From positions 162,983,609-163,047,608 of the forward strand of contig OZ024929.1 of the NCBI GenBank assembly GCA_964017235.1: a stretch of DNA of 64,000 nt. Reading direction: 5' to 3'. The position numbers were made by a program, and so were the translations under genes. Numbering within the stretch: position 1 is the stretch's first letter; the number at the start of each line of letters is the position of its first letter. Source of the stretch: Sabellastarte sp. h YS-2021. Its lineage: Eukaryota > Annelida > Polychaeta > Sabellida > Sabellidae. Below, piece by piece: positions 3,484 to 61,665 of the stretch. The notes beneath the pieces were generated by a model. The model ran no database searches. It was given only the letters and a program-made list of their open reading frames with translations, and had not been told where the DNA came from.

Positions 3484-4303
3484 AAAAATAGCATCAGAGA
3501 TGCCCGTACCCCACAGCCTGGGGAAATAATTTTCTACACCATGAGATATAGAAGTAGTGAAACAGTACAAAGATTGGGATACTTTCATGGCATTGTCAGT
3601 TATATAGCTCAAAATAATGTTTAAGTGGAGAAGATAACAAGAAGATTTTATAGGTCATGGTCTTTACGGCAAGGTCAAAGGTGAAATCAAGGTCACACAT
3701 TGACATTGCACACCTACACCCCCTAACCAATGTCCCTACCAAGCGTCAACTGCCTACACATTACGGTTTCCAAGATATAGCCCAGACAAGATTTTATAGG
3801 TCAAGGTCACTACAGAAAGGTCAAAGGTCAAATCAAGGTCACACCATGACGTACACCTACACCACCTAACCAATGTTCCCACCAAGTATCAACTTCCTAC
3901 ACCTTACAGTTTCCGAGATATAGCCCAGACAAGATTTTATAGGTCAAGGTCACTAAGGCAAGGTCAAATCAAGGTCAAACCATGACGCTGCACACCTACA
4001 ACCCCAAACTAATGTCCCTATCAAGTATCAACTTCCTACACCTTACGGTTTCTGAGATATAGTCCAGACAAGATTTTCAAATACGTCACTGCGGCAAGGT
4101 CAAATCAAGGTCACACCAAGACGCTACACACACACACACCCCCTAACCAATGTCCCTACCAAGTATCAACTTCCTACACCTTACAGTTTCTGAGATACAG
4201 CAGAGACAAACTTTTTCCTGCCACTCGCCAACCCGCCCGCCCATTCAGACACCATGGGTGAGAACAATCCCCCTGACAGCCCTCAAGGGCTGTGGGGTAA
4301 AAA
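3484..4303 (-). mobile_element. HINE family A copy with AGGTCA-rich tandem array
   Basis: The low-coordinate end holds the hairpin GCATCAGAGATGC followed by TACCCCACAGCC. The high-coordinate end holds a palindrome: CTGACAGCCC, TCAA, GGGCTGTGGGGTA. The half-copy near one end and full palindrome at the other are the asymmetric inverted repeats of Helentron-like non-autonomous elements. The interior is a tandem array of about 146-bp units with repeated AAGGTCA half-sites and a 'CCTACCAAGTATCAACTTCC' block. No transposase or helicase is encoded. Other copies: 4765-5854, 18861-20093, 31890-33530, 49446-55208. Confidence 0.75.
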
Positions 4304-4764
4304 TAAATATTTTTACAAGTACATTGTATCCACTCCAGACAACAAGTATGAAGAAAATGCTCTCTGTCAGTGAGTTTTAATCATTTTTAATATGGTGGAT
4401 ATACTTTTTTTCAGTAATAATTCAACTTAAAACCAATCATGACACTGATATGAGAGGCTTATATGCAAAACTGGATGAGTAGCATATCTGTAACATTATT
4501 TTAAGATCTGTAAAAAATAATTTCAAGATGACAGTCAGAACAGCCATCTTGTTTTTGTGAAAATGGTCAAAAACATTATGAGTATGGCTGTTGATAAAAC
4601 AGACTTTTACACCAATACAATATTTGTTGACAATACCTACGATGATTTTGCCTTAAATTAACATAAACTGTAGTCAAATACCCTTGTTTTGCAGCACATC
4701 ACTTGTATCTAAATTTTTCACCCATGCCTTTGTCCAATAGGTGTATATCCACATAGAAATTTAG
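4304..4764. other. Spacer between two HINE-A copies, no gene seen
   Basis: A+T-rich sequence without recognisable genes or repeats. Confidence 0.35.
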
Positions 4765-5854
4765 AAAAATAACTTCGGAGATGCCCGTACCCCACAGCCT
4801 GGGGAAATAGTTTTCATCATGAGATATAGGAGTAGTGAAACAAATATTGGGATACTTTCAGAGCAGTGTCAGTTATTTAAAGGTCCAAATAATGTTTAAA
4901 TAGAGAAAACAATATCTTAGAGAAAGAAAATGTATGTAAAGATAAAGTTTGTAAAAGAAGATAATTCATCAGCAAGATGACAGCATGAATCAGTAAACTA
5001 AAAATTACGAAACTATAAAATTTATTAATCGGAGTATAGCTGTCAATGGAAATAGCACACTTATATAAACGTACATATAATAATCAGTAGCAGCAATCCA
5101 TATATTTGTCATAAGAGAAACATGTGTCAAACATGACAGGTGAACACACCAAAGTTAAAGATCACACCATGATGATGCACACTTACAAACCCTAACCAAT
5201 GTCCCTACCAAGTGTCAACCTTCTACATCTTACAGAATCCAAGAAATGGCCCGGGCAAGAGTTCAAACTCATGGTCACTGCAACAAGGTCAAAAGTCAAA
5301 TCAAGATCACATCATGATTTTGCCCACCTACAGGCCCTAACCAATGTCCATACCAAGTGTCAACTTCCTACACTTTATGGTTTTCAAGATATTGGCCAGA
5401 CAATATATTTAAGGTCAAGGTCACTATAGCAAGGTCAAGGTAAAATCAAGGTCACACCATAATGTTGCACACCTGCAACCCTCAACAAATATCCCTACCA
5501 AGTTTCAACTTCCTACACTTTACAGTTTCCAAGATATTTGACGGGAAAAAATTTTATACGTAAAAGTTACTACACTAAGGTCAAATCAAGGTCATACTTT
5601 ATAATTTTCAAGATTAGCCCAGACAAGTTTTTCAAACACAAGGTCAAACGGCAATGTCAAATCAAGGTCACACCATAACACTGCACACCTACACCCCCTA
5701 ACCAATGTCCCTACCAAGTATCAACTTCCTACACATTACAGTTTCTGAGATACAAGCCTGACAAACTTTTCCTGCCAGCTGCCCAAACGCCCACCCATCC
5801 GGACACCATGGGTGAAACAATACCCTGACAGCCCTTAAGGGATGTGGGGTCAAA
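4765..5854 (-). mobile_element. HINE family A copy, diverged
   Basis: Begins with GATGCCCGTACCCCACAGCC and ends with a palindrome built on CAGCCCTTAAGGG and ATGTGGGGT. The 3' hairpin stem is eroded. It shares with other family A copies a left block (about 4810-5160, with GAGATATAGGAGTAGTG) and an array of AGGTCA-containing units at about 5150-5780. More mutated than 18861-20093 and 31890-33530, so probably older. Confidence 0.7.
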
Positions 5855-7869
5855 ACCTACCAGTTTTACAAAACAAGATATTTATATAATGTTAGAATAT
5901 TTTGTGTCATGTTGGAGTTCTCTGTTCACTTACTGTGTTAAAATGTATGTAATTATTTAAATAGTTCTCTGTTTTCATCTTTTCTCTTTGGTTTTTCTGT
6001 AAACTGTGTACAGGCTTCAAGGCTTTAATTCTGAAATTCAGTACATGTGCTGGATTATTTAAGTATTAATATGAAAAATTTAGGTAACCAGATGAATTGT
6101 CAAAAAGCACGAAAATTGTTGATCTGCGTTTTCAAAATTATACTTAAATTATACTTAATTTTTCAATTAATAATAAATTATACGTAAAAACTCCACCAGG
6201 TAATGTTTCTCTCACGTCATTCAAAAAGTGACTCTGGACGATTTTAATGTTCCTTGGTGCACTGTACCAGCATTTGTCTGTTCCCTTTTGTTATTTTCCT
6301 CTACAACTTTAACATGGTGACATTCTGTTTTGTACAAGATCAGATTACAAGCCGTGACATTTCTACTTTTCTGAAGAAAATGTCACTTTTGGCTCTACAA
6401 GTAGACACATCGTTTCTTTCATTGTCACTCTGCCACTTGATGGACTAAAGTTAGTTCGCACAGACATCATAATACTTTGTACCACAGTTCTATTTTTGTG
6501 ATTTATCATTTGACCTAGCCAAGGTCAAATTTTAGGTGCTGCTTGAACCAATCCTGTCAAAAAGGGTGCAGAAAAATTGACAAACCACATGATTTGTTCA
6601 GAGTGAGAAGATAAGCCATATAACTGAAAGAATGGCCTTACAACCTGCATCCAACTGCTGTATTTCATAAACATCAATTGAAACAGTAGCCCCTACCAGT
6701 ATTGTGCAGTACTTGGGGCTGGCTCCTGTAACTAATAATCTACTTTCGAAAAAGAACACTGAACTTTAGTTTGAAAAAGTGTGAACAAGAAAAAAATTAA
6801 GTTATAACACTATACAGATTAATCAAAGCACCCAAAAGATCAGTAAAAACTGACTTATGGCAAGAAAGATCAACTTTGAGTCATCAAAAAAATTCACTCG
6901 GGAAAAGTGTTTAACCATATTTAATATTTTTAATGCTCATCTACAATCACCGAAATAACACTCAGACCATACACAGTAAAAAGAATGGTTGTACAACCAA
7001 AGCGATTATGCTTGACACAGCATACTCTGGGTTATCAGGAGGCAAACTTGTAAAATAATGGAACAGGGGTATCAGACATAAGCCATTTTTTTAAAACCTT
7101 AGATTAAATGTCATTGTTAATGAATACATTAAACCTTTGACTGTCTAACCTCAATAGCTCAAGAAAAAATGTCACATTGACATTTTCAAGCTCACAGATA
7201 CAAACTGTCATCCACTATCATACCTTTAAACGACATGATAATTCTTTAGTATTATATAATTTTATAACATATTTATTTTTGAAAAGCATTGCTGCAAAAT
7301 TTTGTGGCACTGAAATGACCCAATAGGCTTTTTAATATATTTGCAGATAGTGTTATGTGAACTACAAGGCAGAAATATAAAGGAAATCACACGATTTATC
7401 TCGATGAGCTTCTTTAACAGTTTTTGCCATTTGTCAATGCACTAGCAGTGCTACATCACTCAGTCATGTGTTCTGTTCCAACCCGAGGAAACAAAAATGA
7501 TGCGACATCTGTTTACACTAGAAATATATTGAATTTCTATGTATACATGTTGATAGCTTGTATGCTTATTGACATGAAAATTAAAATGTCCATGTTTACA
7601 CGTTTGCAAATCTCTGGCTCTTTCCTTGCACTTCTAATAGGCACTTATTTCTTTGAAGAGCAGGGAGTGTAATTTCTTTTCCTGAAGTGACTGTAGATGT
7701 TAATGGCAGTGAGGTTCTGGCTATTGGTCATCTGTGTAGCTATGTATTTTTTGACAGAGAAGGGTTTGTGATATGACAAACAAGTACAGTGTAAGAAGTT
7801 ATACATATCATATATTTGTTGGCCAGTTAATTATCTACACAGATGTCTGGTGTAAACATATTCTAACAT
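5855..7869. other. No convincing gene
   Basis: Short ORFs at 6254-6448 and 7424-7672 have no recognisable domain and no clear splice partners. The rest is A+T-rich, with no repeat I could match elsewhere in the window. Confidence 0.35.
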
Positions 7870-8702: not shown

Positions 8703-11240
8703 CTAGAAATAGGACGTCCTGTTGATAGTAGATGCGAATAGAAACAGGATAGCATAGAAGAACACACATTATCATGTGTAATGTCCACCCCATGAACCTT
8801 TTGCCAAAATTGTACAGTAGTCTTGCGAGACCCTGTTTCATTTGTAAAATATATCAATGATGCTTAAATATTTATTAGTGTAGATGTAAATTATTTCAGC
8901 TTCATGCCTTTTTGCATTGGTTGGGTCGAAAATTTTGACGAAATCACTCTATCTTGCATGGTTAAGATTTAGATAGAAGCAAATTTCTGTTTTTCTATTT
9001 TTGGGAAAAATTCGAAAAATCAAAATGGCCGCCATTTTTGGGGAGGGGAAAATTTTTTGAAAATTGCAAAGATTACATTCCTTAGATACCCTGTGGGTCG
9101 AAAATTTCGATGAAATCGCTCTATCTCGCACAGTAAAGGAGATAGAAGTAAATTTGTGTTTTGCCATTTTGGGCAAAAATTCGAAAATTCAAAATGGCCG
9201 CCATTTTTGGGGAGGGGAAATTTTTTTGAAAATTGCACAGATTACATTCCTTAGATACCCTGTGGGTCGAAAATTTCGACGAAATCGCTCTATCTCGCAT
9301 GGTTAAGGAGATAGAAGCAAATTTGTGTTTTGCCATTTTTGGCAAAAATTCGAAAATTCAAAATGGCCGCCATTTTTAGGAGGGGAAAATTTTTTGAAAA
9401 TTGCAAAGATTACATTCTTTAGGTACCCTGTGGGTCGAAAATTTTGACGAAATCACTCTATCTCGCACGGTTAAGGAGATAGAAGGAAATTTGTGTTTTG
9501 CCATTTTTTGCAAAAATTCGAAAAATCAAAATGGCCGCCATTTTTGGGGAGGGGAAAATTTTTTGAAAATTGCAAAGAGTACATTCCTTAGATACCCTGT
9601 GGGTTGAAAATTTCGACGAAATCGCTCTCTCTCGCACGGTTAAGGAGATAGAAGCAAATTTGTGTTTTGCCATTTTTGGCAAAAATTCGAAAATTCAAAA
9701 TGGCCGCCAGTTTTGGGGAGGGGAAAATTTTTTGAAAATTGCAAAGAGTACATTCCTTAGATACCCTGTGGGTCGAAAATTTCGACGAAATCGCTCTATC
9801 TCGCACGGTTAAGGAGATGGAAGCAAATTTGTGTTTTGCCATTTTTGCCAAAAATTCGAAAATTCAAAATGGCCGCCATTTTTGGGGAGGGGAAATTTTT
9901 TTGAAAATTGCAAAGATTACATTCCTTAGATACCCTGTGGGTCGAAAATTTCGACGAAATCGCTCTTTCTCGCACGGTTAAGGAGATAGAAGCAAATTTA
10001 TGTTTTGCCATTTTTAGCAAAAATTCGAAAATTCAAAATGGCCGCCATTTTTGAGAAGGGGAAAATTTTTTGAAAATTGCCAAGAATACAATGCTCAGAT
10101 ACCCTGTGGGTCGAAAATTTCGACGAAATCGCTCTATCTCGCACAGTTAAGGAGATAGAAGCAAATTTGTGTTTTGCCATTTTTGGCAAAAATTCGAAAA
10201 TTCAAAATGGCCGCCATTTTTGGGGAGGGGAAAATTTTTTGAAAATTGCCAAGAATGCAATGCTCAGATTCCCGGTGGATCGAAAATTTAAACGAAATCG
10301 CTCTATCTCGCACGGTTAAGGAGATAGAAGGAAATTTGTGTTTTGCCATTTTTGGCAAAAATTCGAAAATTTAAAATGGCCGCCATTTTTGGGGAGGGGA
10401 AAATTTTTTGAAAATTGCAAAGAGTACATTCCTTAGATACCCTGTGGGTCGAAAATTTCGACGAAATCGGTCTATCTCGCACGGTTAAGGAGATAGAAGC
10501 AAATTTGTGTTTTGCCATTTTTGGCAAAAATTTGAAAATTCAAAATGGCCGCCATTTTTGGGGAGGGGAAAATTTTTTGAAAATTGCAAAGATTACATTC
10601 CTTAGATACCCTGTGGGTCGAAAATTTCGACGAAATCGCTCTATCTCGCACGGTTAAGGAGATAGAAGCAAATTTGTGTTTTGCCATTTTTGGCAAAAAT
10701 TCGAAAATTCAAAATGGCCGCCATTTTTGGGGAGGGGAAAATTTTTTGAAAATTGCAAAGAGTACATTCCTTAGATACCATGTGGGTCGAAAATTTCAAC
10801 GAAATCGCTCTATCTTGCACGGTTTCGGAGATATGAGCACATTTGCCTTTTTCAGTATTCAAAATAGCTAATTACTCATTTATTTAATTAATTACTCACT
10901 CATCTATGAAGCAATTCCTCCCAAAAGCAATCCCATACAAGCTATTAACCCAATGAACCTCCATACCAAATTTCAGAAAGCTAGGCTTAATAGCATTCCT
11001 TAAAATGTCTGAAAACCAAAGAGCTACTCAAAAGTAGCAAAGTAGCTATTACTCAGTTAGCTATAGAGCTATCATCACCAAAAGCAATCCCATACAAGCT
11101 ATTAACCCAATAAACCTGCATGCCAAATTTGGTAAAGATAGGATAAGAACTGTTGCCTAAAATGTCTGGAAACCAAGTGGGACGCCGGACGGCAGAAAAA
11201 GCAAAAATAATATGTCCACCCCTCAGTGGGGTGGACATAA
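8703..11240 (-). mobile_element. HINE family F, boundaries fixed by interrupted LINE frame
   Basis: The 5' end on the minus strand is at 11240: TTATGTCCACCCC followed by its complement GGGGTGGACAT (palindrome 11215-11238). A subterminal half-copy GGGGTGGACAT lies at about 8788-8798. The 3' end has the palindrome AGGACGTCCT and ends CTAG at 8703-8706. Removing 8703-11240 restores an uninterrupted LINE RT frame: KKEN then LDKK. Length is 2538 bp, filled mainly by a 169-bp array. No protein is encoded. This is the Helentron/Helitron-like insertion pattern, between A/T or T/T without target duplication. Confidence 0.8.
8880..10850. repeat. 169-bp tandem array with ATGGCCGCCAT core
   Basis: About eleven to twelve highly similar units at a 168-169-bp spacing. 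Each has AAAATGGCCGCCATTTTT, GGGTCGAAAATTTCGACGAA and CTATCTCGCACGG. Both strands stay open for about 80 codons because the units contain few stop trinucleotides, which makes overlapping pseudo-ORFs on both strands. Related units occur at 50140-50365 and 53758-54400. Confidence 0.92.
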
Positions 11241-14953: not shown

Positions 14954-17728
14954 CTAGAGATTGCGTCTCGACGCAGTGTATCCCCGGACGGGACATAGTT
15001 AAGGCGTGAATGTGTCGGGCTTGAGCCTGTTTCCTGGAGCACCAGGTCAGGATTCTCCATAGTACCAGATTACTTCCAAAATCTAATCACTAGTTGTTTC
15101 ACTTATATGTGTCTTTAAAAATTACATTTCATGGATCCAGAAGATCCATATAGTGATCCGGATCGCTTCCAAAACTCAATCATTTCATCCTTTTACCTTT
15201 TCAGACATATTCTAAAAATTTCATCGAAATCCATCCATAAGTTTTTGTGTTATCTTGTACACAGACACATCTGGCAGCCTGGATCCACATGATCCAGACA
15301 GTGATCCAGATTACTCCCAAAATCTAATCACTTGTTCTTTGTCCCATTTAAGACATTTCCTGAAAATTTCATAAAAATCCATTCATGACTTTCTGAGCTA
15401 TTTGTCTTTAAAAATTACATTCACGGATCCAGAAGATCCAGATAGTGGTCCAGATCACTCGCAAAATTGAACCATTTCTTCCTTTTACCACTTCTTCCTT
15501 TTACCATTTGTAACATATCCTGAAAATAGTAAAATCCATTCCAAGATTATGTGCAAGCCTGGATCCAGATGATCCAGATCACTCCAAAAATGTAATCACT
15601 TGTTCCTTGTACCATTTAGGCCATTTGCTGAAACAATCCATCCATAACTTTTTGAGGTATCTGTCTTAAAAATTACATTTCATGGATCCAGAAGATCCAT
15701 ATAGTGATCCGGATCACTTCCAAAATTCAATCATTTCATCCTTTTACCACTTCTTCCTTTTACTATTTGTAACATAGCCTAAAAATATCATCAAAATTCA
15801 TCGTAAAATCATGTTGCAGGCTCGATCCAGATGATCCAGACGGTGATCCAGATCATTCCAAAAGTATAATCACTTGTTCCTTGTACCATTTAGGTCATTT
15901 GCTGAAAATGTCATCACAATCCATCCATAACTTTTTGAGGTGTGTCTTATTACATTTCACGGATCCAGAAGATCCATAGTGATCCGGATCACTTCCAAAA
16001 TTCAGTTATTTCATCCTTTTACCTTTTCAGACATATCCTGAAAATTTCATCAAAATCCGTCCATAAGTTTTTTTGCTACAATGTACACAAACACATCTGG
16101 CAACCTGGATCCAGATGATCCAGACAGTGATCCAGATCACTCCCCAAATCTAATCACTTGTTCCTCGCACCATTTAGGTCATTTGCTGAAAATGTCATCA
16201 CAATCCATCCATAACTTTTTGAGGTATCTGTCTTATTACATTTCATGGATCCAGAAGATCCATATAGTGATCCGGATCACTTCCAAAATTCAGCCATTTC
16301 ATCCTTTTACCTTTTCAGACATATCCTGAAAATTTCATCAAAATCCGTCCATAAGTTTTTTAGCTACAATGTACACAAACACATCTGCAACCTGGATCCA
16401 GATGATCCAGACAGTGATCCAGATCACTCCCCAAATCTAATCACTTGTTCCTCGCACCATTTAGGCCATTTGCTGAAAATGTCATCACAATCCATCCATA
16501 ACTTTTTGAGGTATCTGTCTTTAAAAATTACATTTCATGGATCCAGAAGATCCATATAGTGATCCGGATCACTTCTAAAATTCAACCATTTCATCTTTTT
16601 ACCTTTTCAGACATATCCTGAAAATTTCATCAAAATCCGTTCACAAGTTTTTGAGCTATATTGTACACAAACACATCTGGCAGTCTGGATCCAGATGATC
16701 CAGACAGTGATCCGGATCACTCCCAAAATCTAATCACTTGTTCCTCGTCCCAATAAGGACATCTCCTGAAAATTTCATCAAAATGCACCCATAACTTTTT
16801 GAGCTATCTGTGTTTAAAAATTAAATTTCATGGATCCAGAAGATCCAGACAGTGATCCGGATCACTCCCAAAATTTAATCACATCTTCCTTTTACCAATT
16901 TGGACATATCCTGAAAATTTTATCAAAATCCGTCTGTCAGTTTTTGAGTTATCTTGTTTACAAACAAACAAACAAATAGAGGGCCCAAAATGACCCACGG
17001 TCAGGTACTTTGGCGGTCAGTGGATGACCTTCAACGAAGATCTGTAACCGGTCAGCCTGGATGCTGGTACTCCATCATGTACTCAACCTCAAAAGCCATT
17101 TTCAATAGTTTCCACGCAATGTAGTCAGCATTAAGTGTGAAAATATCTCCAAATATGCCAAAAATGACCCTTGGTCAGGTACTTTGGCGGTCAGTGGATG
17201 ACCTTAAATGAAGATCTGTAACCAGTAAACCTGGATGGCAGAAGTCCATCATGTACTCAACCTCCAAAGCCATTTTCAATAGTTTCCATGCAATATAGTC
17301 AGCGTTAAGTGTGAAAATATCTCCAAAAAGGCCAAAAATGCCCCTCGGTCAAGTACTTTGGCGGTCAGTGGATGACCTTCAATGAAGAGCTTCAAGGTCA
17401 AATTTCTGCATGCTTATAGAGGACATATATATGTATTATATATACCAGCCATAGGATGATCTAACTTTCTGTCTTGGAGAACTGGGCCAAAATGTGCAAA
17501 AATGGCCAAAATCTGACCTTTAAGTGGCCACCAGTGACCTTGAGATTGAAGGTCAAGGTCACAAAACAATAGCGTTCGTGGCATTGCCCATATATACCCA
17601 CATACCAAATTTGAAAGTTCTAACTAAAATATTTTTTAAGTTATCGCGTCCAAAAGGAAATCTCTGCGGCGGCGGCGGCGTGACCGTACTGAATCCTAAG
17701 TATCCCCGACTTTCGTCCGGGGATACAA
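14954..17728 (-). mobile_element. HINE family E, complete, with GGATCC-rich array
   Basis: Low end: CTAG at 14954-14957, a perfect hairpin TGCGTC/GACGCA, then GTATCCCCGGACG. High end: a palindrome GTATCCCCG ... CGGGGATAC at 17700-17726. The half-copy and full palindrome are the asymmetric terminal repeats of this class. The interior is an array (15120-16965), then three copies of a 'GGTCAGGTACTTTGGCGGTCA' type repeat at about 16990-17390, then a (CGG)n stretch near 17667. No ORF of note. Confidence 0.8.
15120..16965. repeat. About 290-bp dimeric array rich in GGATCC/GATCCGGATC
   Basis: CATGGATCCAGAAGATCC or a close variant recurs near 15128, 15421, 15681, 15958, 16244, 16538 and 16831. Between these, a second half-unit carries TGGATCCAGATGATCCAGAC. 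Spacing is about 260-294 bp. One further unit lies alone at about 31640-31760 in the receptor intron. Confidence 0.9.
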
Positions 17729-18860: not shown

Positions 18861-20093
18861 AAAAAATAGCATCAGAGATGCCCGTACCCCACAGCCTTGG
18901 GAAATATTTTTAACACCATGAGATATAGAAGTACTGTATCAGTACAAAGTTTAAGATACTTTCAGAGCACTGTCAGTTATATAAAGATCCAAACAATGTT
19001 TCAATAGAGAAAATACTGTCTAAGAGAAATATAATGCATGTACTCCTTATCTACATTTGGTATGGCCGAATTATGGTTTAAATGTTTTGAATATTACCAT
19101 GCAGACAGAAGTGGTAATACATTCAATGAATGCTTATATGTGGTGTTGGAGCAAATTCTGTGGCTCACTTGATGAAATTCCATCTGTTACAATGGGAAAT
19201 TGTAAAATTAAAATTCTTGATGAATTCTAATATGACTTTAACAGTACTTAATCTGCATCAAAAGACAGACCCAAAGGTGCAACAAGCTTAAATAGGTCAA
19301 GGTCACTACGACAAGGTCAAAGGTCAAATCAAGGTCACACCATGATGCTGCACACCAGCACCTAACCAATGTCCCTACCAAGCATCAACTTCCTACACCT
19401 TACGGTTTCCCAGATATAGCCCGGACAAGATTTTATAGGTCAAGGTCACTACAGCAAGGTCAAAGGTCAAATCAAGGTCACACCATGATGTTGTACACCT
19501 ACACCCCCTCACCAATGTCCCTACCAAGTATCAACTTCCTACACCTTACAGTTTCCGAGATATAACCCAAACAAGATTTTATAGGTCAAGGTCACTACAG
19601 CAAGGTCAAAGGTCAAATCATGGTCAGACCATGACATTGCACACCTACACCCCCTAACCAATGTCCCTACCAAGTATCAACTTCCTACACCTTACAGTTT
19701 CCGATATAGCCTAGACAAGATTTTATAGGTTGAGGTCACTACGGCAAAGGTCAAATCAAGGTCACACCATGATGTGGCACACCTACACCCCCTAACCAAG
19801 GTCCCTACCAAGTATTAACTTCCCACACCTTACGGTTTCCGAGATATATCCCGGACAAGATTTTTAAACTCAAGGTCACTACGGCAAGGTCAAATCAAGG
19901 TCAGACCATGACGTTGCACACCTACACATCCTAACCAATGTCCCTATCAAGTATCAACTTCCTACACCTTACAGTTTCTGAGATACAGCCCGGACAAACT
20001 TTTTCCCGCCTCCCGCCTCCCGCCTGCCCGCCCATCCGGACACCACGGGTGAAAACAATACCCCAACAGCCCTCAAGGGCTGTGGGGTAAAAA
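18861..20093 (-). mobile_element. HINE family A copy, well preserved
   Basis: Low end: ATAGCATCAGAGATGC (hairpin stem GCATC/GATGC) then CCGTACCCCACAGCC. High end: ACAGCCCTCAAGGGCTGT followed by GGGGTA. A left block at 18900-19290 includes a short conserved ORF (19130-19291). It is followed by five to six units of about 146 bp with AGGTCA half-sites, two or three of which contain the exact direct repeat AGGTCAAAGGTCA. Confidence 0.8.
19130..19291 (+). other. Short ORF conserved among HINE-A copies
   Basis: A 53-codon ORF starting MLICGVGANSVAHL and containing SNMTLTVLNLHQKT. The same ORF is open at 49762 (MLICGVGAKSVAHL) and 32209 (MLLCGIGAKPVAHL). It sits just before the tandem array in the longer family A copies. 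Similarity may simply reflect common descent of the repeat. No family is recognised, and coding is unproven. Confidence 0.3.
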
Positions 20094-24100: not shown

Positions 24101-24359
24101 GAGTCCTTGCGGTATTCACGTAACAAAAATATTTCAGCCATTTTGAAGTTTCACATGGAACAAAGATTCTCGGGTTATGAAGCTTACTATGAATTGCACT
24201 CAGCTGCACAAAACTACCTTTATCTTCACAACTGGAGTTGGAAGTCCATACCGACTTCTCAAAGTTTTCTTTTGTTAGGATAGTAATTGCAGGTTCTCTT
24301 GAAAAGCCTAGTATTGGTGTGAGTGCGAGAACTTTTCCTTTACTGTGATATAGTTCATC
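21120..24359 (-). CDS. Receptor exon 3: lectin-like region, four LDLa, LRRs, 7TM, stop
   Basis: This exon encodes 1079 residues. Positions below are exon residues. About 25-145 has a lectin-like cysteine pattern (SSCEDKGSFVQLSAIHS, GWLSVADKCFALYG). LDLa modules lie at about 302-339 (CDGETICPDGSDEKGC, a full calcium cage), 359-395, 494-528 and 533-568. A cysteine-rich LRR cap (CPPQCICKGLKADC) is at 571-585, LRRs about 625-765 (LTHLDLRKNPL), and seven hydrophobic helices 790-1079. The helix-3 end reads GLSRAFYTLKPF in place of a DRY/ERW motif, and helix 7 reads LNTWMYYL in place of NPxxY. The reading frame is open upstream of the first GTG/ATG, back to the splice acceptor, so this is not a separate gene. 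Membrane receptor; G-protein coupling is inferred from the family. Confidence 0.92.
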   Translation of the reverse strand, partial: DELYHSKGKVLALTPILGFSREPAITILTKENFEKSVWTSNSSCEDKGSFVQLSAIHSKLHNPRIFVPCETSKWLKYFCYVNTARTLKFSSKTLNKSNSTTVEYKVESSPSGVVLSPPLFACPTGQGWLSVADKCFALYGIIIKPNEPVIFNNIMKPPVVVSLTREIERTMCNFKSPVNVRHSEALNLKPIFDFRLYDGWMNPFELHPEYNVLMNSLSLTLFVPFLFPVTNTSYQYMSSRYSYLFEVADKTWKNNNFYILHFITSPLLPLFAYFDNIDLSLTDEPKVYFCETEMITTVKQVACHSNYFQCLEGTCVAYFERCDGETICPDGSDEKGCHSCVKPGTGAMYSSLSNGSTSCWCTAFLFKCLSGECVMVDKVCNGFNDCADATDELMCPDWHITSKHHRLSSVNTSGYIGDLRMPVVNKWSMSQLIDYFFLQTGQSITVEFLGQVHTLCENIGHIDIWNLCLLLAFDGVIGFCPDGSHLQRCQQINCQNRFKCNISGVCIPLMYVCNGQAECEAGQDEEHCNNLACPGMLKCSGSGTCLETHEICNGVVSCTPYGDDELYCFVCPPQCICKGLKADCFFDVNNVNQLIIVGQSALKGASIQLQSDRTDNVTINLFLLRQVLSVSLDSSNISTISYTSTFSLTDDRHLLTSHIKVLSLNDNKLHSLCCYVFTEMILLLHLSASHNMIDYLDDATFTGAVNMRTILLTQNNIRFVGKHVFDGNTQLTHLDLRKNPLILLYWDSLRLSVNLQNFWLDSAHYCCALVYIEHCYPDRTLNSRCSLKLVPLVYQPAAFILGLVCILLNLLVFLKLENWYSLERSSKRFLALLDAGFGAYLIVIGSAFHRYKYSFMDDFRAWQSSPLCLICSFVFLLVTEMSTVLTCFIGLSRAFYTLKPFAKKETHKRATIFINSIIAILVLSLGYLYVRYMSIELEKNNFIFQPDIFCNVFVLHWILILEKHSFAVVYGVVLLNLLCLVSFTIAYGIVYTTALKGFYSFSGNGRKPTRTLVLFCCKCLRLVFHNNCYIVVKIFLYMKLLYSIDTALSLSIWHAVIIYPYFSLLNTWMYYLSHNKCCK

Positions 24360-24549
24360 CTAAAATAAAAACCAATTTAAAAAAAAAATTCAAAGTACAA
24401 ATCCGTACAAACATATTATAAATGAGAACAAGCATTCTGACGCATGCATTTATCTCCCACCATATAAATTAGATGTACTAAAGATAGTGGAATATAAATT
24501 TTCTTTTGAGATGGAGGCACATGTAGAAGTAACAAGCTTAATGTTTGAT
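24360..24549. other. Start of receptor intron 2
   Basis: Begins with the acceptor TTTTATTTTAG (minus strand). The ATIR-like ATCTCCC at about 24452 starts the next element. Confidence 0.5.
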
Positions 24550-40662: not shown

Positions 40663-40715
40663 TCTAAAACCTACCCCTCAGCTGTAAACAGCAGGGAGGC
40701 AGGGTGGGACTCTTC

Positions 40716-48205: not shown

Positions 48206-48240
48206 GGTAGGTTTCACATTGCAAACCTCTCGGATCAATA

Positions 48241-48409: not shown

Positions 48410-48421
48410 CTCGGACCAATA

Positions 48422-48983
48422 ATAAGTAACTTATAAGCACTTTTAAATTTGGCTATCCTTGCTTGACCTTGAAGGAGGGGTCTAAGGTCAAATCTGACTA
48501 AATCAGAAGATTCCCAGCCCATGATTTCCTATAGGTTGGTTTCACATTGTAAACCTCTCGGACCAATAATAAGGGAGATAAAGGCACCTTTACAGTCCGC
48601 TATGTGGCGTAACTTGGCACTCCGTGGACAACCTTGAATTAAGAGCTTCAAGGTCAAATGTCTGCACAGTTGTAGAGGACATGTATATCTATTATACATA
48701 TCACCTTTGAAGAGATTCAACCTTCTACCTATGAGAACCAGCCAGTACAAAAAGGTACATAATTTTCAAAGAAATGCCTGTGGCGGCCATCTTGTTTTTT
48801 AGAATGAGGCTAATTTCAGTCCCAGAGAAGCTTACCTCCCAATGAATATATACTGCAAATTTGGTGAACCTAGCTGGTGTAGTTATCCTCTGAGTGTGTT
48901 ATGTCAAAAATCTCTCTACGTGCGGCGGCCGTGTAGCAAACACTAAACCAAAGTATCCATCGGATGCCTCCTGTGGATACAAT
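48422..48983 (-). repeat. HINE remnant related to 28299-29028
   Basis: It has the GTCAAATCTGA/GATTCCCAGCCCATGA repeat and ends in the palindromic GTATCCATCGGATGC ... GGATAC at about 48953-48982, after a GCGGCGGCC stretch. The 3' terminus with CTAG is missing. Confidence 0.6.
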
Positions 48984-49445: not shown

Positions 49446-50139
49446 GCCGTACCCCACAGCCTAGGTTAATATTTTTAACACCATGAGATATGGAAGTACT
49501 GTATCAGTACAAAGTTCAGGATACTTTCAGAGCACTGACAGTTATATAAAGATCCAAACAATGTTTAAATGGAGAAAATAATGTCTAAAAGAAAGATAAT
49601 GCATGCAAAGATAAGGTATTAAAACAAGATAATTCAATAACAAGATGACAGCATTAATCAGTAAACTAAAATTACAACACTCTTTATCTACATTTGCATG
49701 GCCGAATTATGGTTTAGATGTTTTGAATATTACCATACAGAAGTGGTAATACATTCAATGAATGCTTATATGTGGTGTTGGAGCAAAATCTGTGGCTCAC
49801 TTGATGAAATTCCATCTCTTCCAATGGGAAGATATAAAAGTAAAATTCTTAATAAATTCTAATATGACTTTAACAGTGCTTAATCTGCATCAAAAGACAG
49901 ACCCAAAGGTGCAACAAGATTTTAAAGGTCACTACGACAAGGTCAAAGGTCCAACTAGAGGAACGCTCGCAAAAAAAAGATAATGTTTTTGCATAGCAAA
50001 AACAAAGCGTCCCGAAAAGGATATAAAGGTGAATGCTGAAGTATTAAGAAAATGCTTCGTTTCTAGCCTTATACTGTTGTGGCAACCAAAGTCAGCGCAG
50101 TCTGCTCTATCTAGCATGGTTTTCAAGATATAAGCATTT

Positions 50140-50365
50140 TTGTGTTTTGCAAAAACTTCGAAAATTCAAAATGTCCGCTATATTTGGCGAGACAAAAATA
50201 TTTTGAAAATTGGCATGGCTACTCTGCAGAGATACCTAGCAGGTCAAAAATTTTGTTCAGTTCGCTCCTTCTAGCACGGTTTTCGAGATATAAGCATTTT
50301 TGTGTTTTGCAAAAACTTTGAAAATTCAAAATGGCCACCATTTTTGGGGAGACAAAAATTTTTGA
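50140..50365. repeat. Two units related to the 169-bp array
   Basis: Units with AAAATTCAAAATGTCCGC and AAAATTCAAAATGGCCACCA, CTAGCACGGTTTTCGAGATA. They are the left half of an array interrupted by the 134-bp array and resumed at 53758. Confidence 0.8.
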
Positions 50366-50399
50366 CAAGACCATTCCCGCGGTGTGTATCTCCCGCCGA

Positions 50400-53300
50400 G
50401 CATTAAAGGAGAAGAAATAGCTTTTCCAAGATATTCACAATTTTTCATTTTCGTGTGTGAAAGTTCTCCCAAAAGTAGATGAATGAGTTATTTGATAAAA
50501 ATTGGGTATGCACAATACTTTTAGAGATAATTCGCATTTACTCATTTTGAGTAGGTGAATAATTAGCTATGGGTCTGAAACTTCACCAAGTGAAAGCTCT
50601 CCCAAAAGTAGGTGAATGAGTTATTTGAGAAAAATTGGCTATCTGCAATACTTTTAGAGATAATTCGCATTTACTCATTTTGAGTAGGTGAGTAATTAGC
50701 TATGGGTCTGAAACTTCACCATGTGAAAGCTCTCCCACAAGTACATGAATGAGTATTTGATAAAAATTGGGTACCCCTAATACTTTTACAGATAATTAGC
50801 ATTTACTCATTTTGAGTAGGTGAATAATTAGCTATGGGTCTGAAACTTCACCAAGTGAAAGCTCTCCGAAAAGTAGGTGAATGAGTTATTTGAGAAAACT
50901 TGGCAATCTGCAATACTTTTAGAGATAATTCACATTTACTCATTTTGAGTAGGTGAGTAATTAGCTATGGGTCTGAAACTTCCACAAATGAAAGCTCTCC
51001 CAAAAGTAGGTGAATGATTTATTTGAGAAAAATTGGCTATCTGCAATACTTTTAGAGATAATTCGCATTTACTCATTTTGAGTAGGTGAACTAGAAGAAT
51101 GTTTTTGCTGACAAAAACGAAGCGGCCCTGATGAAAAAGAAGTTACCCATAAAAGATGTCAACATATGCACCATAAGCAATAGAAACTGTGAACTTTATT
51201 GCATTGTGTATGTTACTTGTCCCTATTTTCATCTTTAATGAGTTCGCAGTGAGGTCAGTTGAACAATACAATAGCTGGAGATTAAAACCTCCATCATTTC
51301 GCTGCAAGATGGCCATAACTTTATTCATATTGCGACTTTAATGTGACCATAATATGAGAATGTCCCTTCAATATCAATATATGTTAGATATGGAAAAAGA
51401 AAGGAGCCAGATGGCTTTATTCAAATGTTATGGGCCAAAATTATATTAACAGTTTAAGGTCACCTTAAAGTCAGGATAACCCTTTGGTTTGCCATCCTTT
51501 ATAAGTGTGCAAAGTTTAACTGAGGTCAGCCGAACAATAAGATACTTGGAGGCTGAAAACCCCCTTATTTCACTTTAAGGTGGCTACAACTCCATTCATA
51601 CTGAGAGTTTAAGGTGACCATAAGTATTATTTTTATCTAGTTTAATACCAGTGATAATTTCGATATAAAAAATGGAAAAAGAAAGGAGCCAGAGCATTTT
51701 ATTCCAATTTGATGACTTTAAGCAGGCCATATGTCCATTAACATTTTGAGTTTAAGGTCACCATACAGTCAGGATATTCCTTTGGAAAATCTTAATATAT
51801 GTGCCAAGTTTGGTTGAAAAAAGTGAGAAACTAAGTGAACTGGAGGGCTAAACCCCCGTTTTTGACATTAAGGTGACCTTAAAATTGCAGATACAGGGCT
51901 AAAACTTCGGCATGTGAAAGATTATCAAAAAGTAGCTGAATAAGTTATTCCAACAAAACGCCGAAATCCTGACCGTTTTTGAGATACAGACCAAGTACTC
52001 ATTTTTAAAAAATTTACGAAAATAAAACGCCTCCCATTCAGGCATCTATGGTCCGATTGATGAGAAAATCCTTTCCGACCTTGGAAATTTGGTCTAGAAT
52101 GTACCTGATAAATTTTATACCACAGCTGTGTGTGGTTTTTTCCGAAACGCGATGACGAGGTGTTTTGGACTTATGCTTAAGGTTACCTTAAGTAAAGCTT
52201 AAGGTCTGTGCAAAGTATCTCAAAAATTTTTCCCACCCCTATAGTTTTAAAGAAAGATAAAAAGGAAAGAAAAATTTGAAAGGCTAAGAAGTTATTCAAG
52301 GGAGACCATAATCCGGCGGCGGCGGCGGCGGTGATCAGTCGAACTTCGGTGAAAACAAATAAGCGTCCCTAACGGGCCGCTTAATTATTAGCTATGGGTC
52401 TGAAACTTTACCAAGTGAAAGCTCTCCCAAAAGTAGGTGAATGAGTTATTTGAGAAAAATTGGCTATCTGCAATACTTTTAGAGATTATTCGCATTTACT
52501 CATTTTGAATAGGTGAGTAATTAGCTATGGGTCTGAAACTTCCCCAAGTGAAAGCTCTCCCAAAAGTAGGTGAATCATTTATTTGAGAAAAATTGGCTAT
52601 CTGCCATACTTTTAGAGATAATTCGCATTTACTCATTTTGAGTAGGTGAGTAATTAGCTATGGGTCTGAAACTTCACCATGTGAAAGCTCTCCCACAAGT
52701 ACATGAATGAGTTATTTGATAAAAATTGGGTATCCGCAATACTTTTACAGATAATTAGCATTTACTCATTTTGAGTAGGTGAATAATTAGCTATGGGTCT
52801 GAAACTTCACGGAGTGAAAGCTCTCCCAAAAGTAGGTGAATGAGTTATTTGAGAAAAATTGGCTATCTCCAATACTTTTAGAGATAATTCGCATTTACTC
52901 ATTTTGAGTAGGTGAGTAATTAGCTATGGGTCTGAAACTTCACCATGTGAAAGCTCTCCCACAAGTACATGAATGAGTTATTTGATAAAAATTGGGTATC
53001 CGCAATACTTTTACAGATAATTAGCATTTACTCATTTTGAGTAGGTGAATAATTAGCTATGGGTCTGAAACTTCACGGAGTGAAAGCTCTCCCAAAAGTA
53101 GGTGAATGAGTTATTTGAGAAAAATTGGCTATCTCCAATACTTTTAGAGATAATTCGCATTTACTCATTTTGAGTAGGTGAGTAATTAGCTATGGGTCTG
53201 AAACTTCACCATGTGAAAGCTCTTCCAAAAGTAGGTGAATGAGTTATTTGATAAAAATTGGGTATCCGCAATAGTTTTTGAGATAATTAGCATTTACTCA

Positions 53301-53757
53301 TTTTGAGTAGGTGAGTAATCAGCTACGGGTCTGAAACTTCACCAAGTGACAGCTCTCCCAAAAGTAGGTGAATGAGTTATTTGAGAAAAATTGGCTATCT
53401 GCAATACTTTTAGAGGTAATTCGCATTTACTCATTTGGAGTAGGTGAGTAATAAGCTATGGGTCTGAAACTTCACCATATGAAAGCTCTTCCAAAAGTAG
53501 ATGAATGAGTTATTTGAGAAAAATTGGCTATCTGCAATACTTTTTAAGAGATAATTCGCATTTACTCATTTTGAGTAGGTGAGTAATTATCTACGGGTCT
53601 GAAACTTCACCATGTGAAAGCTCTCCCAAAAGTAGATGAATGAGTTATTTGATAAAAATTGGGTATCCGCAATAGTTTTAGAGATAATTAGCATTTACTC
53701 ATTTTGAGTAGGTGAATAATTAGCTACGGGTCTGAAACTTCACCGAGTGAAAGCTCT
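50400..53757. repeat. 134-bp tandem array, interrupted, with dimeric higher-order units
   Basis: About five units at 50400-51090 and ten at 52385-53757, each with TTACTCATTTTGAGTAGGTG, AGCTATGGGTCTGAAACTTC and GTGAAAGCTCTCCCA. Two 266-bp dimers, 52681-52946 and 52947-53212, appear identical by eye, so a recent duplication is likely. Confidence 0.92.
51091..52384 (-). mobile_element. Third-level HINE, complete, about 1.29 kb
   Basis: Low end: CTAG at 51091, hairpin GTTTTTGCTGACAAAAAC, then GAAGCGGCCC. High end: AAGCGTCCCTAACGGGCCGC followed by TTAATTA. It interrupts one 134-bp unit. The interior carries the AACTGAGGTCAGCCGAACAA and TAAGGTGACCATAA blocks and a (CGG)n stretch at about 52315. 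A relative lacking its left end finishes at 61664. Confidence 0.8.
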
Positions 53758-54400
53758 TTGGAATAGCTGCTCTGCAGAGATACCCTGCAGATAAAAAATT
53801 TCGTCGAAATCATTCTATGTAGCACAGTTATCGAGATATTAGCATTTTTGTGTTTTGCAATTTTTACGCAAAAATTTGAAAATTCAAAATGGCCGCCATG
53901 TTTGGTAAGACAAAATTTTTTTGAAAATTTTTGGCATGGTTACTCTGCAGAGATACCGTGTGGGTCAAAAATTTCGTCGAAATCGCTCTATCTAGCACGG
54001 TTTTCGAGATATAAGCATTTTTATGTTTTGCAATTTTGCGAAAAATTCGAAAATTCAAAATGGCTGCCATTTTTGGCGAGAAATTTTTTTTTTTGAAAAT
54101 TGGCATGGCTACTCTCCAGAGATACCCTGTGGGACAAAAATTTCGTCGAAATCGCTCTATCTAGCAGGGTTTTCTAGATATAAGCATTTTTATGTTTTGC
54201 AATTTTTGCGAAAAATTCGAAAATTTAAAATGGCCACCATTTTTGGTGAGACAAATTTTTTTTGAAAATTGGCACGGATACTCTGCAGAGATACCCTGTG
54301 GGTCAAAAATTTCGTCGAAATTGCTCTATCTAGCACGGTTTTCGAGATATAAGCATTTTTTGTGTTTTCCTTATTTGGAAAATTCATAATGATTAATTAA
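53758..54400. repeat. Four units related to the 169-bp array
   Basis: AAAATTCAAAATGGCCGCCA, GTCGAAATCGCTCTATCTAG and TTTTCGAGATATAAGCATTT recur at about 163-168-bp spacing. Same family as 8880-10850 but a distinct subfamily. Confidence 0.85.
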
Positions 54401-55208
54401 TCATTAATTACTCGGCCATTTCTTAACCATTATCAATGCCAAAATCTAATGATTTCCAGATTTTAATAGAATGAATGTATTTGCCAAGTTTCAGGTGAAT
54501 TGATAAAATTCCTTTCAAGTTATCATCAGGACAAGCTTCCCCATCGAAAAAAAGACATTTTTGGTCATGTGACCTCTCTGATTGGTTGAAATGTCACTGC
54601 AGCATATTCAAAAAAATTCCCCAAGGCTACTGCCTAAACCTTCCAGATTTGAAAAGAATCCGCCTCCGGCGGAGCCGGCGGAGCCTGAAGGTCTCCCATA
54701 CACGAACAAGCGTCCCTTGCGGGATGCTTAATTAATGTAACACCATGATAATGCACACCTATAACCCCTAACCAATGTCCCTACCAAGTATCAACTTCCT
54801 ACACTTTACAGTTTCCGAAATATAGCCCAGAAAAGATTTTATAGGTCAAGGTCACTACGGCAAGGTCAAAGGTCAATTCAAAGTCACACCATGATCTTGC
54901 ACACCTACACCCCCTAACCAATGTCCCTAGTACGTATCAACTTCCTCCAACTCACGGTTTCCGAAATATAGCCCGGACAAGATTTTATAGGTCAAGATCA
55001 CTACGGCAAGGTCAAAGGTCAAATCAAGGTCAGACCATGACTTTGCACACCTACACCCCCTAACCAATGTCCCTACCAAGTATCAACTTCCTACAACTTA
55101 CGGTTTCTGAAATACAGCCCAGACAAACTTTTTCCCGCCCCCCCCGCCCATCCGGACACCATGGGTGAAAACAATACCCCGACAGCCCTTAAGGAATGTG
55201 GGGTAAAA

Positions 55209-55945
55209 ACTGTATCAGTTGCAGTATTAGACTGTAAGCAGAATAACAGCATGCACAGCTAGGCTTGATAAGAGGCAATTCTTTTCTCGCATGCAGTTTT
55301 ATTTGAGTGAGGGGAGTGGGGAGGGGGCAGATCTGTGCAGAAAAAGACTGCCTCTTCCTCACTCCCTTCACTGAAATAAAACGCAGGTGAGAAAAAGATT
55401 ATTTACAGTAGAATTAGGTTTTACAGCAAGTACTTAATTATGTAAGGGGTTCAGTTCTAAAATTTTACTATGTTATGACTGACACAAAACTACATCAAAA
55501 CACATTTAACAAAATGCTGTAAATGTAATACTTTTTAAGTTCTAAGTGATTTAGTGCATGAATACATGAATTCTAATTAAGAAAGATCCAGGCCTGATAC
55601 TCCCACAGGGGAATCTACTGGTGGCCTAGTAGATATATGCAAGATATGAGAGAAATCCCTGTAATAGTCGATGAGAAAATTGTGATAAAATATTGAAATT
55701 TTCAGACTTTGGGTGGGGGTACCTCTCTTCTAATGGCTCTGAGGAACGGACAGACAGATCTGCATGGTTTTTACGATTTATCATCCTCAATAGATAAGGT
55801 ATCTTTAAAAAACAGCATGTCTCTGGGTCTTGTAGTTTTGGAGCAGAAGTTGTTAATGCGGATATGTACGCCGCAGAGTGATGCCATAATGTCAGCTGAC
55901 ATAAAAACTTGCAAATTTAATAAATAAATTAAATTTTTATAAGTT
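55209..55945. repeat. Repeat mosaic
   Basis: It carries a GTATTAGACTGTAAGCAGAA unit (as at 12060-12190), a satellite remnant at 55440-55560, the CTGATACTCCCACAG block at 55590 and the AACAGCATGTCTCTGGG block at 55811. The order matches 860-1790. No gene. Confidence 0.65.
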
Positions 55946-58906: not shown

Positions 58907-59245
58907 ATATTGTGACTTTAAGGTGATCCTAAACTGAGAATGTCCCTTTCTGCAAACCTTTATAAATGTGCCAAGTTTTATTTTAAAAATTTAAACATTA
59001 ACTGAGCTTAGGGCTGCAGAGTGATGCCATAAAGCAAAACCATTTGAAAAAATACATTAAAATTTGACATTTGAAAATTCAGGGTTTTTGTATCCAGAAT
59101 GTGATATGGATTTTTCACAAAAGTTTAATTTCATTTTCCTTCGGTCAGGCCCTATGTACATAAGAAATTTCATAAAGATCTGTTCATATCTTTTTGCGTA
59201 TTAAGAAACAGAGATACAAACACATCCAAAACATAACCTCCTTAT
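58907..59245. repeat. HINE internal repeat, right of LINE insertion
   Basis: Resumes with TGTGACTTTAAGGTGATCC and ends near a degraded ACCTCCTTATGGTAGT terminus at 59228-59243. Confidence 0.65.
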
Positions 59246-59949
59246 GGTAGTAATGAGAGCAGATATTAGTGTAAGTTAATATTTCTGAATATGTCAAATA
59301 TATGAATTTAAAATACTCTTCATTGATCATACACAAATTGTGCAAGTAATAAGGAATCTTTACAGATTTTCTTTGCTAATACATTTATTTTGACTTTCCA
59401 CAAAGTAAGGCTGGCCATAATAAGCATTGTGTTTAAGTTAAAGAAACATTTTTCAGGGTAACTGGTCAAACTATTCAAGTACATGTATATTGCAACCCCT
59501 CTCCATTAAAAACCTGGGACAATGTGAATATAGAACAGTGTTGTAAAGTGGTTTTCTAATTCTAAACTAAATATTTTTAAAGTTAACATGCAACACAAAA
59601 TAACTCAAAGTATTAAATATCAGAGAAATTAAGTGATATTTGTGTCTCAATAATGTACACTAAGAGGAAAACAAAGAATGTTTGTGTGTGCACTGCAGTA
59701 AATGTGTATATGCAGGAGTGAGTGTTTACCTAAGTTCGGTAACCTGAGGAGATGCTGAAAAGGTCTGTTGTAAATCTTCCCCACCCCTCCCCCACCCCTC
59801 TCCACTTCAATTGAAACCCTGGAGGGAGAAAAACACAGACATATATAATCCACACACATACATAGAGGCAATTTTTGTTTCTGTAACACACACACACAGG
59901 CAATTCTGTTCTCTGATGCAGATTGTGCAAAGATCAGAAAATGTGCGAA
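59246..59949. other. No gene seen
   Basis: Contains a (CA)n tract at about 59886-59900 and a C-rich CCACCCCTCCCCCACCCC stretch near 59781. No domain in the ORFs. Confidence 0.4.
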
Positions 59950-61665
59950 ATGTCTAGTTTTATATGGAGCTATTACATAATTTTGCAAACAGCTACAAGT
60001 CTGAAATGTTACTATGTTATAGCTGAAAGAAAAACATATTTAACAAAATCTTTTAAATGCAATACTTTTCAAGTTGTAAGTGATTTACTAAATGAACTCA
60101 TGAGTTTTATTGCATGAAAAAAAATTATTTAAAAAATTCATAAAAAAAAATTAGGAAAGATCCAGGCCTGATACTCACTCAAGTGAATCTACTAGTGGCC
60201 TAGTACATACATGCAAGATAAGAGAAAGATGCTTTCAATAGTGAATGAGAAAATTGTGATCAAGTGTTGAAATGTTCACACTTTGGGTGGGGGTACCTCA
60301 CTTGTAATGGCTCTAGGGAACAGACGAACAGACTGATGAGCATGAATTTTACGATTTATCATCCTCAATAGTTAAGGTATCTTTTAAAAAAACAGCATGT
60401 CTCTGGGTGTTGTACATTTTGAGAAGAGGTTGTTCACGAGGATGCAGAGTGATGCCATAATGCCATAAAAAGGTCATTAAAAGTCTTCCTTAAACTTAAT
60501 CAATATGTCAAGTTGAACTGATGTTATTGAACAGTACGTCAGTTGGGAGCTGAAAACCCTCATTTTTACTTTACGATGGCCATGACTGTGCTTGTATTGG
60601 AACTCCAAGGTGGAAAGAAAATAAGATGTCCCTATTTTCATCTTTAATAAGTGTGCAAAATTTAACTGAGGTCAGTTGAACAATACAATAACTGGAGATT
60701 AAAACCTCCATCATTTCATTGGAAGGTGGCCATAACTTCATTCATATTGGGACTCTAAGGTGACCATAAAATAAGAATGTCCCTTTTGTCATCTTTTTTT
60801 TTTGTATAAGTGCATAAAGTTTAGCTCAGGTCAGTTGAACAATAAGATAGCTGGAGACTGAAAACTTCATTTTTTCACTGTAAGGTGACCATAACTTCAT
60901 TCATATTGTGACTTTAAGGTGACCATAAACTGAGAATGTCCCTTCAATATCAATATACGTTAGATATGGAAAAAGAAAGGGGCCACATGGCTTTATTGCA
61001 ATTTTATGATTTTAGGGAGGGGGGGCATAGCTCCAATCATATTAACAATTTAAGGTCACCATAAAATCGGGATAATCCTTTGGTAAATCTTAATATATAT
61101 GCCAAGTTTGGTTGAGAAAAGTGAAAAAGTAAGTGAACTGGAGGGCATTTTGACATTAAGGTGACCTTAAGGTTGCAGATACAGGGCTAAAACTTCGGCA
61201 TGTGAAAGATTATCCAAAAGTAGCTGAATAAGTTATGCCAACAAAACGCTGAAATCCTGACTGTTTTTGAGATACAGATCAAGTACCCAATTTAAAAAAA
61301 ATTACGAAAATGAAACGCCTCCCATTCAGGCATCTATGGTCCGATTGATGAGAAAATCCTTTCTGACCTCCAGAAATAGGTCTAGACTGTACCTGATAAA
61401 TTTTATAGCACAGGTGTGTGTGTTTTTTTCCAAAACACGATGACAGGTGTTTTGGAAAAATGCTTATGGTTACGTTAAGTAAAGTTTAAGGTCTCCGCAA
61501 AGTATCCCAAAAATTTCTCCGGCCCCTTTTGTTTTAAAGAAAGATAAGAAGGAAAGAAAATTTTTAAAGCCCAAGAAGTTATTCAAGGGAGACCATAATC
61601 CTGCGGCGGCGGCGATCAGTCGAACTTACGTGAAAACAAATAAGCGTCCCTGACAGGCCGCTTAA
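59950..61665 (-). mobile_element. HINE of the AAGCGGCC type, left end not found
   Basis: Satellite remnant, the CTGATACTCACTCAA block and the AACAGCATGTCTCTGGG block (59960-60470) lead into the TAAGGTGACCATAA-type interior (60470-61590). A CGGCGGCGGCG stretch is followed by the terminal palindrome AAGCGTCCCTGACAGGCCGC ending at 61664. Closely related to 51091-52384, which helps show how the longer version is built. Confidence 0.65.

Follow-up and report, generated by a model that had tools for sequence, protein, structure and literature searches.

The locus examined here, a window of 64,000 nucleotides (nt) from the sabellid annelid Sabellastarte sp. h YS-2021 (contig OZ024929.1, positions 162,983,609 to 163,047,608), raises the question of why many tandem-array elements with differing terminal sequences should be built on one plan and point the same way. 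We interpret them as Helentron-associated interspersed elements (HINEs), that is, as non-autonomous rolling-circle transposons moved by the Rep-helicase-endonuclease proteins of Helentrons, probably of several, and lying in the genome with a local strand polarity, a reading to which we give a probability of roughly 0.88. The elements are ordinary in kind and rich in copies. The coherence of strand across HINE families is well supported, both in the sampled chromosome and at the local loci.

With the layout read on the minus strand, all seven half-palindrome types listed by an earlier, sequence-only reading of this DNA were found in the window, at the ends of tandem-array elements and always on that strand. 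The full layout, namely, a 5' palindrome, an array, a 3' half-copy, a short hairpin and an end in CTAG/TT or a T run, is present in A1, A3, A4, C, E and G1 (Table 1). The single layout proposed for at least six families is therefore real, although A2, A5, B, D, F and G2 show it incompletely, and the seven half-palindromes reduce to about five groups, because C resembles D (GTATCC and a GCC-rich module in common) and E resembles G (AAGC..CCC, a GTTTTTG hairpin and CTAG/TT in common). These resemblances, together with the related 169-bp monomers of B and E (about 77% alike), contradict the accompanying claim that all families are of unrelated sequence. Family A terminates in a T run (CTATTTT), and C, D, E and G1 in CTAG/TT. 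In B the palindrome, half-copy and hairpin are present and the last bases are ambiguous; F has a good 5' palindrome, a 3' half-copy with two mismatches and a weak 3' hairpin; and the 5' inverted half that is worn in D is intact in the D2 fragment. Every family observed here carries tandem arrays.

The identification as HINEs, already made in the sequence-only reading, is borne out, because the palindromic 5' subterminal inverted repeat (subTIR), the 3' subTIR, the 3' hairpin and the T-rich ends fit the definition given in the available text of two published accounts (PMC4067079, PMC7492417). The subTIRs are of the defined kind, 11-15 bp long and either palindromic or with an adjacent 5' inverted repeat, E and G sharing 9-10 bp, and the short 3' palindrome is present, if weak in F, broken in A2 and lost in A5. 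Canonical Helitrons (5' TC, 3' CTRR, A/T insertion) do not match, since, although CTAG/T was seen in C, D, E and G, the 5' end is TT followed by the subTIR, and a T run closes A. Chance as the source of the half-palindromes was ruled out by reversed-pattern and shuffle controls. A blind scan of the window for a palindrome with 8-bp arms and a 10-bp inverted copy 0.2-4.5 kb away returned 28+45 matches against a mean of 2.25 (maximum 7) in 20 dinucleotide shuffles; the majority lay within tandem arrays, with termini of A1, A3, A4, B and C also represented. Genome-wide counts of families A, D, F and G, made on both strands with the reversed pattern as control, gave 3752+3603 = 7,355 5' ends and 4546+4373 = 8,919 3' ends for A, 413+417 = 830 5' ends for G, 104+105 = 209 5' ends for F and 1832+1776 = 3,608 3' ends for D, each against 0+0 reversed, and 610+672 = 1,282 G-class 3' ends against 3+5 reversed.

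A T-rich target with at least two Ts at each end was found for both A and G-class ends. Among 100 listed A 5' ends, the Ts before TACC number exactly four in 65, more in 13 and fewer in 22, and among 100 listed A 3' ends at least four Ts follow in 98, of which 71 have at least five; therefore most of these Ts look element-borne, with an extra T favoured on the 3' side. The 30 A elements with both ends listed show no duplication beyond the T runs: a repeat of at least 2 bp outside TTTT occurs in one of the 30, the shuffled mean being 1.5. Before 100 listed G 5' ends, the final five bases are T in 97, A in 82, A in 89, T in 97 and T in 99, the sixth being unbiased, and after 100 listed G-class 3' ends T stands at +1 in 98 and at +2 in 100, with mixed bases thereafter. 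Empty sites could be compared for E, which lies in the A5 array, and for G1, which lies in a 133-bp array. In both cases the rejoined flanks align along uninterrupted monomers, and the sole excess, apart from 1-2 base changes, is one doubled TT: present once before insertion, TT stands to the left and to the right of the inserted element. This TT may be either element-borne or a 2-bp duplication, the two being indistinguishable here, and the available text of the HINE paper is likewise undecided on terminal TT (PMC4067079). Thus, the check for a target-site duplication of fixed length gave none beyond the Ts in the A pairs, whereas at E and G1 a 2-bp duplication is not separable from carried Ts.

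A family search of the genome returned 24 places with a Helitron_like_N match, and eight of these 24 Rep loci were extended to look for termini, which were recovered at three. Two of them, Helentrons E1 and E2 (distinct from HINE E), agree at 98.5-99% along most of their length, each lying between a palindrome at the 5' end and a half-copy of 11 bp at the 3' end. The domain scan, which covered E1 and the third locus, R009, with E2 judged by its identity to E1, found in E1 Rep, PIF1 and a marginal Exo_endo_phos match (22.5 bits, cut-off 24.5), and in R009 OTU, Rep, PIF1 and Exo_endo_phos_2, the last above its cut-off. Recovered at its 5' end, R009 starts with AAGCATCCC..GGGGTGCTTATTTGTTTT, which is the palindrome and 5' module of the E/G subTIR class. 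This module matches 39 other places (40 scored of 254 candidates), and 30 of the 39 matches start no more than 10 bases from the R009 terminus. At one neighbour locus, L053, a short element has the R009-type 5' end, then GGGATGCT, a hairpin and a CTAG 3' end. The search for an autonomous Rep-helicase element with matching ends, which had been suggested as a check, thus succeeded in part, in the layout of E1 and E2 and in the E/G 5' module of R009. Because E1 and R009 are only 31-34% identical in their longest protein matches and have different subTIRs, the several subTIR classes or families probably each depend on their own Helentron, these Helentrons being related but not the same. An F-like 5' module behind R009 (R009:13562) was considered as part of it but is treated here as an F piece in its own right. 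In E2 (C2:137.35-137.37 Mb) the 5' palindrome is present in two copies, separated by about 770 bp that contain repeats, as if the 5' part were tandemly repeated.

The strand of these elements is locally uniform. When 22 directional modules were matched to the window, 37 clusters emerged, of which 36 are on minus, and after merging by eye 26 of the 27 elements and fragments have the same orientation. In the 18 kb around R009, all eight clusters are on plus. Of seven further loci with at least two clusters, six are self-consistent, two of these six overlapping each other and some clusters being pieces of one element, and one (L025) is not. A wider test was made on chromosome C1, among the matches listed, with 5000 permutations. 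The A sample comprised 98 of 100 listed 5' ends (two copies with identical flanks dropped) and 100 3' ends, giving 168 elements to 25.7 Mb; the G sample, 98 of 100 listed 5' and 97 of 100 listed 3' ends (five identical-flank copies dropped), giving 163 elements to 148 Mb; the F sample, 27 of 30 places listed on C1 (three tandem copies dropped, and 70 listed places on other chromosomes excluded); and the D sample, 100 listed places to 48.7 Mb.

Pairs from different families share a strand in 45 of 55 cases within 30 kb and in 38 of 45 at 30-60 kb, values that none of the 5000 permutations reach, and farther apart in 43/74 at 60-100 kb (p 0.10), 172/324 at 100-300 kb (p 0.16) and 454/959 at 0.3-1 Mb (p 0.97). 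Within families the figures are 71/85 within 30 kb (0/5000 permutations), 52/82 at 30-60 kb (p 0.013), 60/99 at 60-100 kb (p 0.027), 228/403 at 100-300 kb (p 0.005) and 531/1101 beyond (p 0.93), D-D pairs being weaker (8/10, then 3/9 and 7/12). Earlier partial tests had given 46/56 within 30 kb for A alone (89 of 100 listed 5' ends used), 5/8 within 30 kb (p 0.42) and 21/31 within 100 kb (p 0.07) for A with G, and 32/43 within 100 kb (p 0.002) for G alone. Such a bias, found in A, D, F and G alike, argues for a shared mode of insertion or retention. One machinery serving all the cores is not demonstrated, given the divergence of E1 and R009 and of their subTIRs. Head-to-tail junctions of 3' and 5' ends also occur on C1, from G to A at 4017178 and 34000578, from G to B at 70034080, and from A to F at 16715753 and 24687546.

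As a control we used an unrelated, non-HINE repeat with 17,115 genome matches to its core pattern, taking the first 100 places (C1 to 13.3 Mb); its two copies in the window, at 8416-8582 and 48239-48405, are 93% alike. Among these places the repeat has no coherence of its own (14/30 pairs within 30 kb, 47/94 within 100 kb) and no association with HINE strand (23/41 within 30 kb, p 0.28; 79/163 within 100 kb). Segmental duplication was rejected as the source of the coherence, near copies with identical flanks having been removed and the control repeat being incoherent. Composition skew was rejected as the whole cause, since masking leaves little of it in the window (0.020 for T over A, 0.012 for G over C). 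It may still be a partial cause: of 14 masked local stretches, with some overlap between them and imperfect masking, 11 have more T than A on the HINE-sense strand.

What this local polarity follows is hinted at by the genes. The two large host-like open reading frames (ORFs) of the window are on minus, like its HINEs. Of ten 5-kb stretches beside protein-kinase exons, three contain HINE modules: at L058 the gene and a D module are both on plus; at L059 the gene and pieces of B, F and C are all on minus; and at L061 the gene and a 488-bp A array are on minus, with an 81-bp C piece on plus. In these four regions the main HINE orientation is thus that of gene sense, though so small a sample is suggestive only, and the data hint that the alignment of neighbouring families follows the direction of genes or of DNA copying. 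Under the HINE reading, Rep would recognise the subTIR and hairpins, would nick at both termini, TT on one side and CTAG (or the T run) on the other, and would pass a single strand, with the arrays as cargo, into a T-rich target; the strand on which the elements land or survive tracks a local polarity over some tens of kb, across families. At somewhat short of even odds, it is tempting to speculate that HINEs insert strand-selectively into one locally opened strand, at a transcription site or a replication fork, so that unrelated families would line up over tens of kb and stand as fossil arrows of gene or fork direction.

Could the elements be something else altogether? Miniature inverted-repeat elements derived from a DDE transposon that duplicates 2 bp (TT) on insertion, their palindromes being ordinary inverted repeats, would account for TT on both sides of G-class copies (T in 97 and 99 of 100 listed at -2 and -1 on the 5' side, and in 98 and 100 at +1 and +2 on the 3' side) and for the single TT of the empty site. 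However, the ends are asymmetric, with a palindrome on one side and a half-copy plus a separate hairpin on the other; the A ends, with exactly four Ts before TACC in 65 and at least four 3' Ts in 98 of 100 listed each, favour extra Ts only on the 3' side; and the E/G 5' module also occurs in a Helentron, R009. Judged from the ends and from R009, this explanation is very improbable. With HINEs retained as the identity of the elements, their coherence could arise secondarily, if insertion into older HINE DNA, or into T-rich strands that offer more TT targets, made islands grow one way. The in-sense nesting of E, G1 and the F piece, the head-to-tail junctions on C1 and the excess of T on the HINE-sense strand are what such growth would leave. 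Yet cross-family coherence is equally strong at 30-60 kb as below 30 kb, no other match to the 100-base flanks was found in the 259 kb compared for A1-A4, B, C or D, and a T-over-A skew of 0.020 in the window is far below what an orientation bias of about ten to one, by our estimate, would need; secondary growth is thus an unlikely cause.

The question then turns on whether HINEs land with a strand preference or are sorted afterwards. Both orientations might land in genes and antisense copies be purged, for example through disturbing transcripts, which would agree with the gene-sense orientation in the window and in the three kinase stretches, and with a scale of tens of kb that could match long genes. 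This we hold to be possible, at somewhat less than even odds. The control repeat from the same stretch is incoherent, which speaks against such purging, though that repeat may be neutral in both orientations; and G copies are coherent too (32/43 within 100 kb), one compared copy being about 95% like G1, so that some are not old. Strand-selective insertion and selection as causes of the coherence are not separated by these data.

Several points weigh against the HINE reading and its link to genes. The doubled TT at the E and G ends also fits a 2-bp duplication. In E1 the endonuclease match is slightly below cut-off, and the 3' hairpin of E1 and E2 is weak. The domains of R009 are split over two reading frames and its 3' end was looked for and not found, so that R009 may be a relic. 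Termini were sought in R010, R016, R018, R021 and R022 and none were found, and no autonomous partner for A, B, C, D or F turned up among the eight of 24 Rep loci extended. As for gene sense, the link is based on three of ten kinase stretches and the window, L061 holds one weak antisense C piece, and comparing 11 kinase matches on C1, few of them close to a listed HINE, with the listed HINEs gave agreement in 1/1 pairs within 30 kb, 1/2 within 60 kb, 4/5 within 100 kb (three of them around one gene) and 8/16 at 100-300 kb.

Table 1. HINEs, HINE pieces and large host-like ORFs in the 64,000-nt window.
Feature	Position	Strand	Composition and state
HINE A1	3484..4303	-	TTTT+TACCCCACAGCC palindrome, 143-bp array, 3' half-copy, GCATC hairpin, CTATTTT end
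HINE A2	4765..5855	-	ends worn, hairpin broken
HINE B	8755..11240	-	ATGTCCACCCC perfect 11-bp palindrome, 169-bp array, half-copy, ACACAT hairpin; 3' terminus uncertain
HINE C	14954..17728	-	GTATCCCCGGACG palindrome, 174- and 293-bp arrays, half-copy, TGCGTC hairpin, CTAG/TTT
HINE A3	18862..20093	-	whole layout
Host ORF, LDLa and leucine-rich repeats	21120..24359	-	gene strand reference
HINE F	24450..26445	-	ATCTCCCGCC 5' palindrome, 143/320-bp arrays, worn 3' half-copy; 3' end approximate
HINE D	28299..29027	-	GTATCCACCG (5' inverted half worn), 147-bp array, GCATC..GATGC hairpin, CTAG/TT
HINE A4	31891..33530	-	whole layout
Host-like ORF, 766 aa, no Pfam match	33698..35998	-	gene strand reference
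HINE D2 fragment	48410..48982	-	5' end, palindrome full, array partial
HINE A5	49447..55209	-	split by E; 3' hairpin lost
HINE E (AAGCGTCCC class)	49955..54731	-	within A5 array; ends TT+AAGC and CTAG/TT
F-type piece	50369..53757	-	inside E; 133-bp array and GGCGGGAGAT 3' end, without 5' module; low end approximate
HINE G1 (AAGCGGCCC)	51091..52384	-	inserted into 133-bp array
HINE G2	60667..61665	-	5' part

In all, the elements of the window number five for A, one for each of B, C, D, E and F, and two for G, besides further fragments. At 49447-55209 they form a nest of four levels, in which the A array contains E, the E array the F piece, and the array of that piece G1, with one orientation throughout. 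Other repeats lie between them. A series of retroelement-like ORFs with one RNase H match occupies 40500-46800 on minus, between two mutually inverted copies, each about 164 bp long (40496-40656 and 46636-46799), and may be DIRS-like. ORFs with RVT_1 reverse transcriptase matches, mutually related, lie on plus at 56852-58762 and 37223-37774. There is also an exact 56-bp tandem at 56770, and tandem short palindromic repeats centred on CTCGCCTAGGCGAG at 47846-48017.

The layout of the ends, the arrays, the T-rich target and the presence of many families in one genome are already published (PMC7492417, PMC4067079, in the text available). In particular, 11 families of Cg_HINE were described in 2020 from the single genome of the oyster Crassostrea gigas (PMC7492417), and a layout common to several families is therefore no new finding. 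According to the accessible parts of that account, the oyster elements likewise have a 5' subTIR with a complementary inverted repeat, a microsatellite-like stretch, a central array resembling satellite DNA, a 3' subTIR and a 3' palindrome; they have a TT-rich target without target-site duplication, some families share ends but not arrays, and array orientation is constant within an element (PMC7492417). They differ in that no autonomous partner could be tied to the oyster families, and the same parts mention neither CTAG 3' ends nor strand coherence of neighbours, elements being said to occur in both orientations (PMC7492417). The sharing of a 5' module between R009 and HINEs of the same genome is thus a step on the partner question left over from the oyster. 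Pearl, DTC84 and MgE of bivalves, which we liken by description only, have a comparable architecture around a short satellite-like array, Pearl being termed a non-autonomous Helentron in the portion of the paper at hand (PMC7492417).

In the HINE literature, as far as its available text goes, HINE-Mo has palindromic subTIRs 2-4 nt from the 5' end, and HINE-Mo and DINE-1 carry Ts at either end and a 3' stem-loop, include copies with tandem repeats and have a Helentron partner, whereas here arrays are present in every family and CTAG ends in C, D, E and G (PMC4067079). Proto-Helentron-Pi has the 5' TT, the 3' CTAG and insertion between A and T, but it is described there as lacking the endonuclease and as having a Helitron-like structure, whereas E and G have Helentron subTIRs and R009 encodes an endonuclease (PMC4067079).

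For the coherence of strand itself, we found no description for Helitrons or HINEs in the literature searched, outside which most subscription papers lay; as far as searched, it is undescribed. Since it spans families and is absent from the control repeat, it offers an inexpensive way to read from a genome how, in animals, rolling-circle transposons choose or retain a strand, and the choice between an open fork, a transcribed strand and selection becomes testable in any annotated genome with HINEs. The nearest comparison is with bacteria, where elements with a strand pattern include IS200/IS605 and Tn7, as stated in the part of the source available (PMC5371812). IS200/IS605 are likewise single-strand transposons, whose orientation follows replication; they are bacterial and use another enzyme, whereas in this annelid we see the strand pattern alone, perhaps arising from transcription or selection (PMC5371812).

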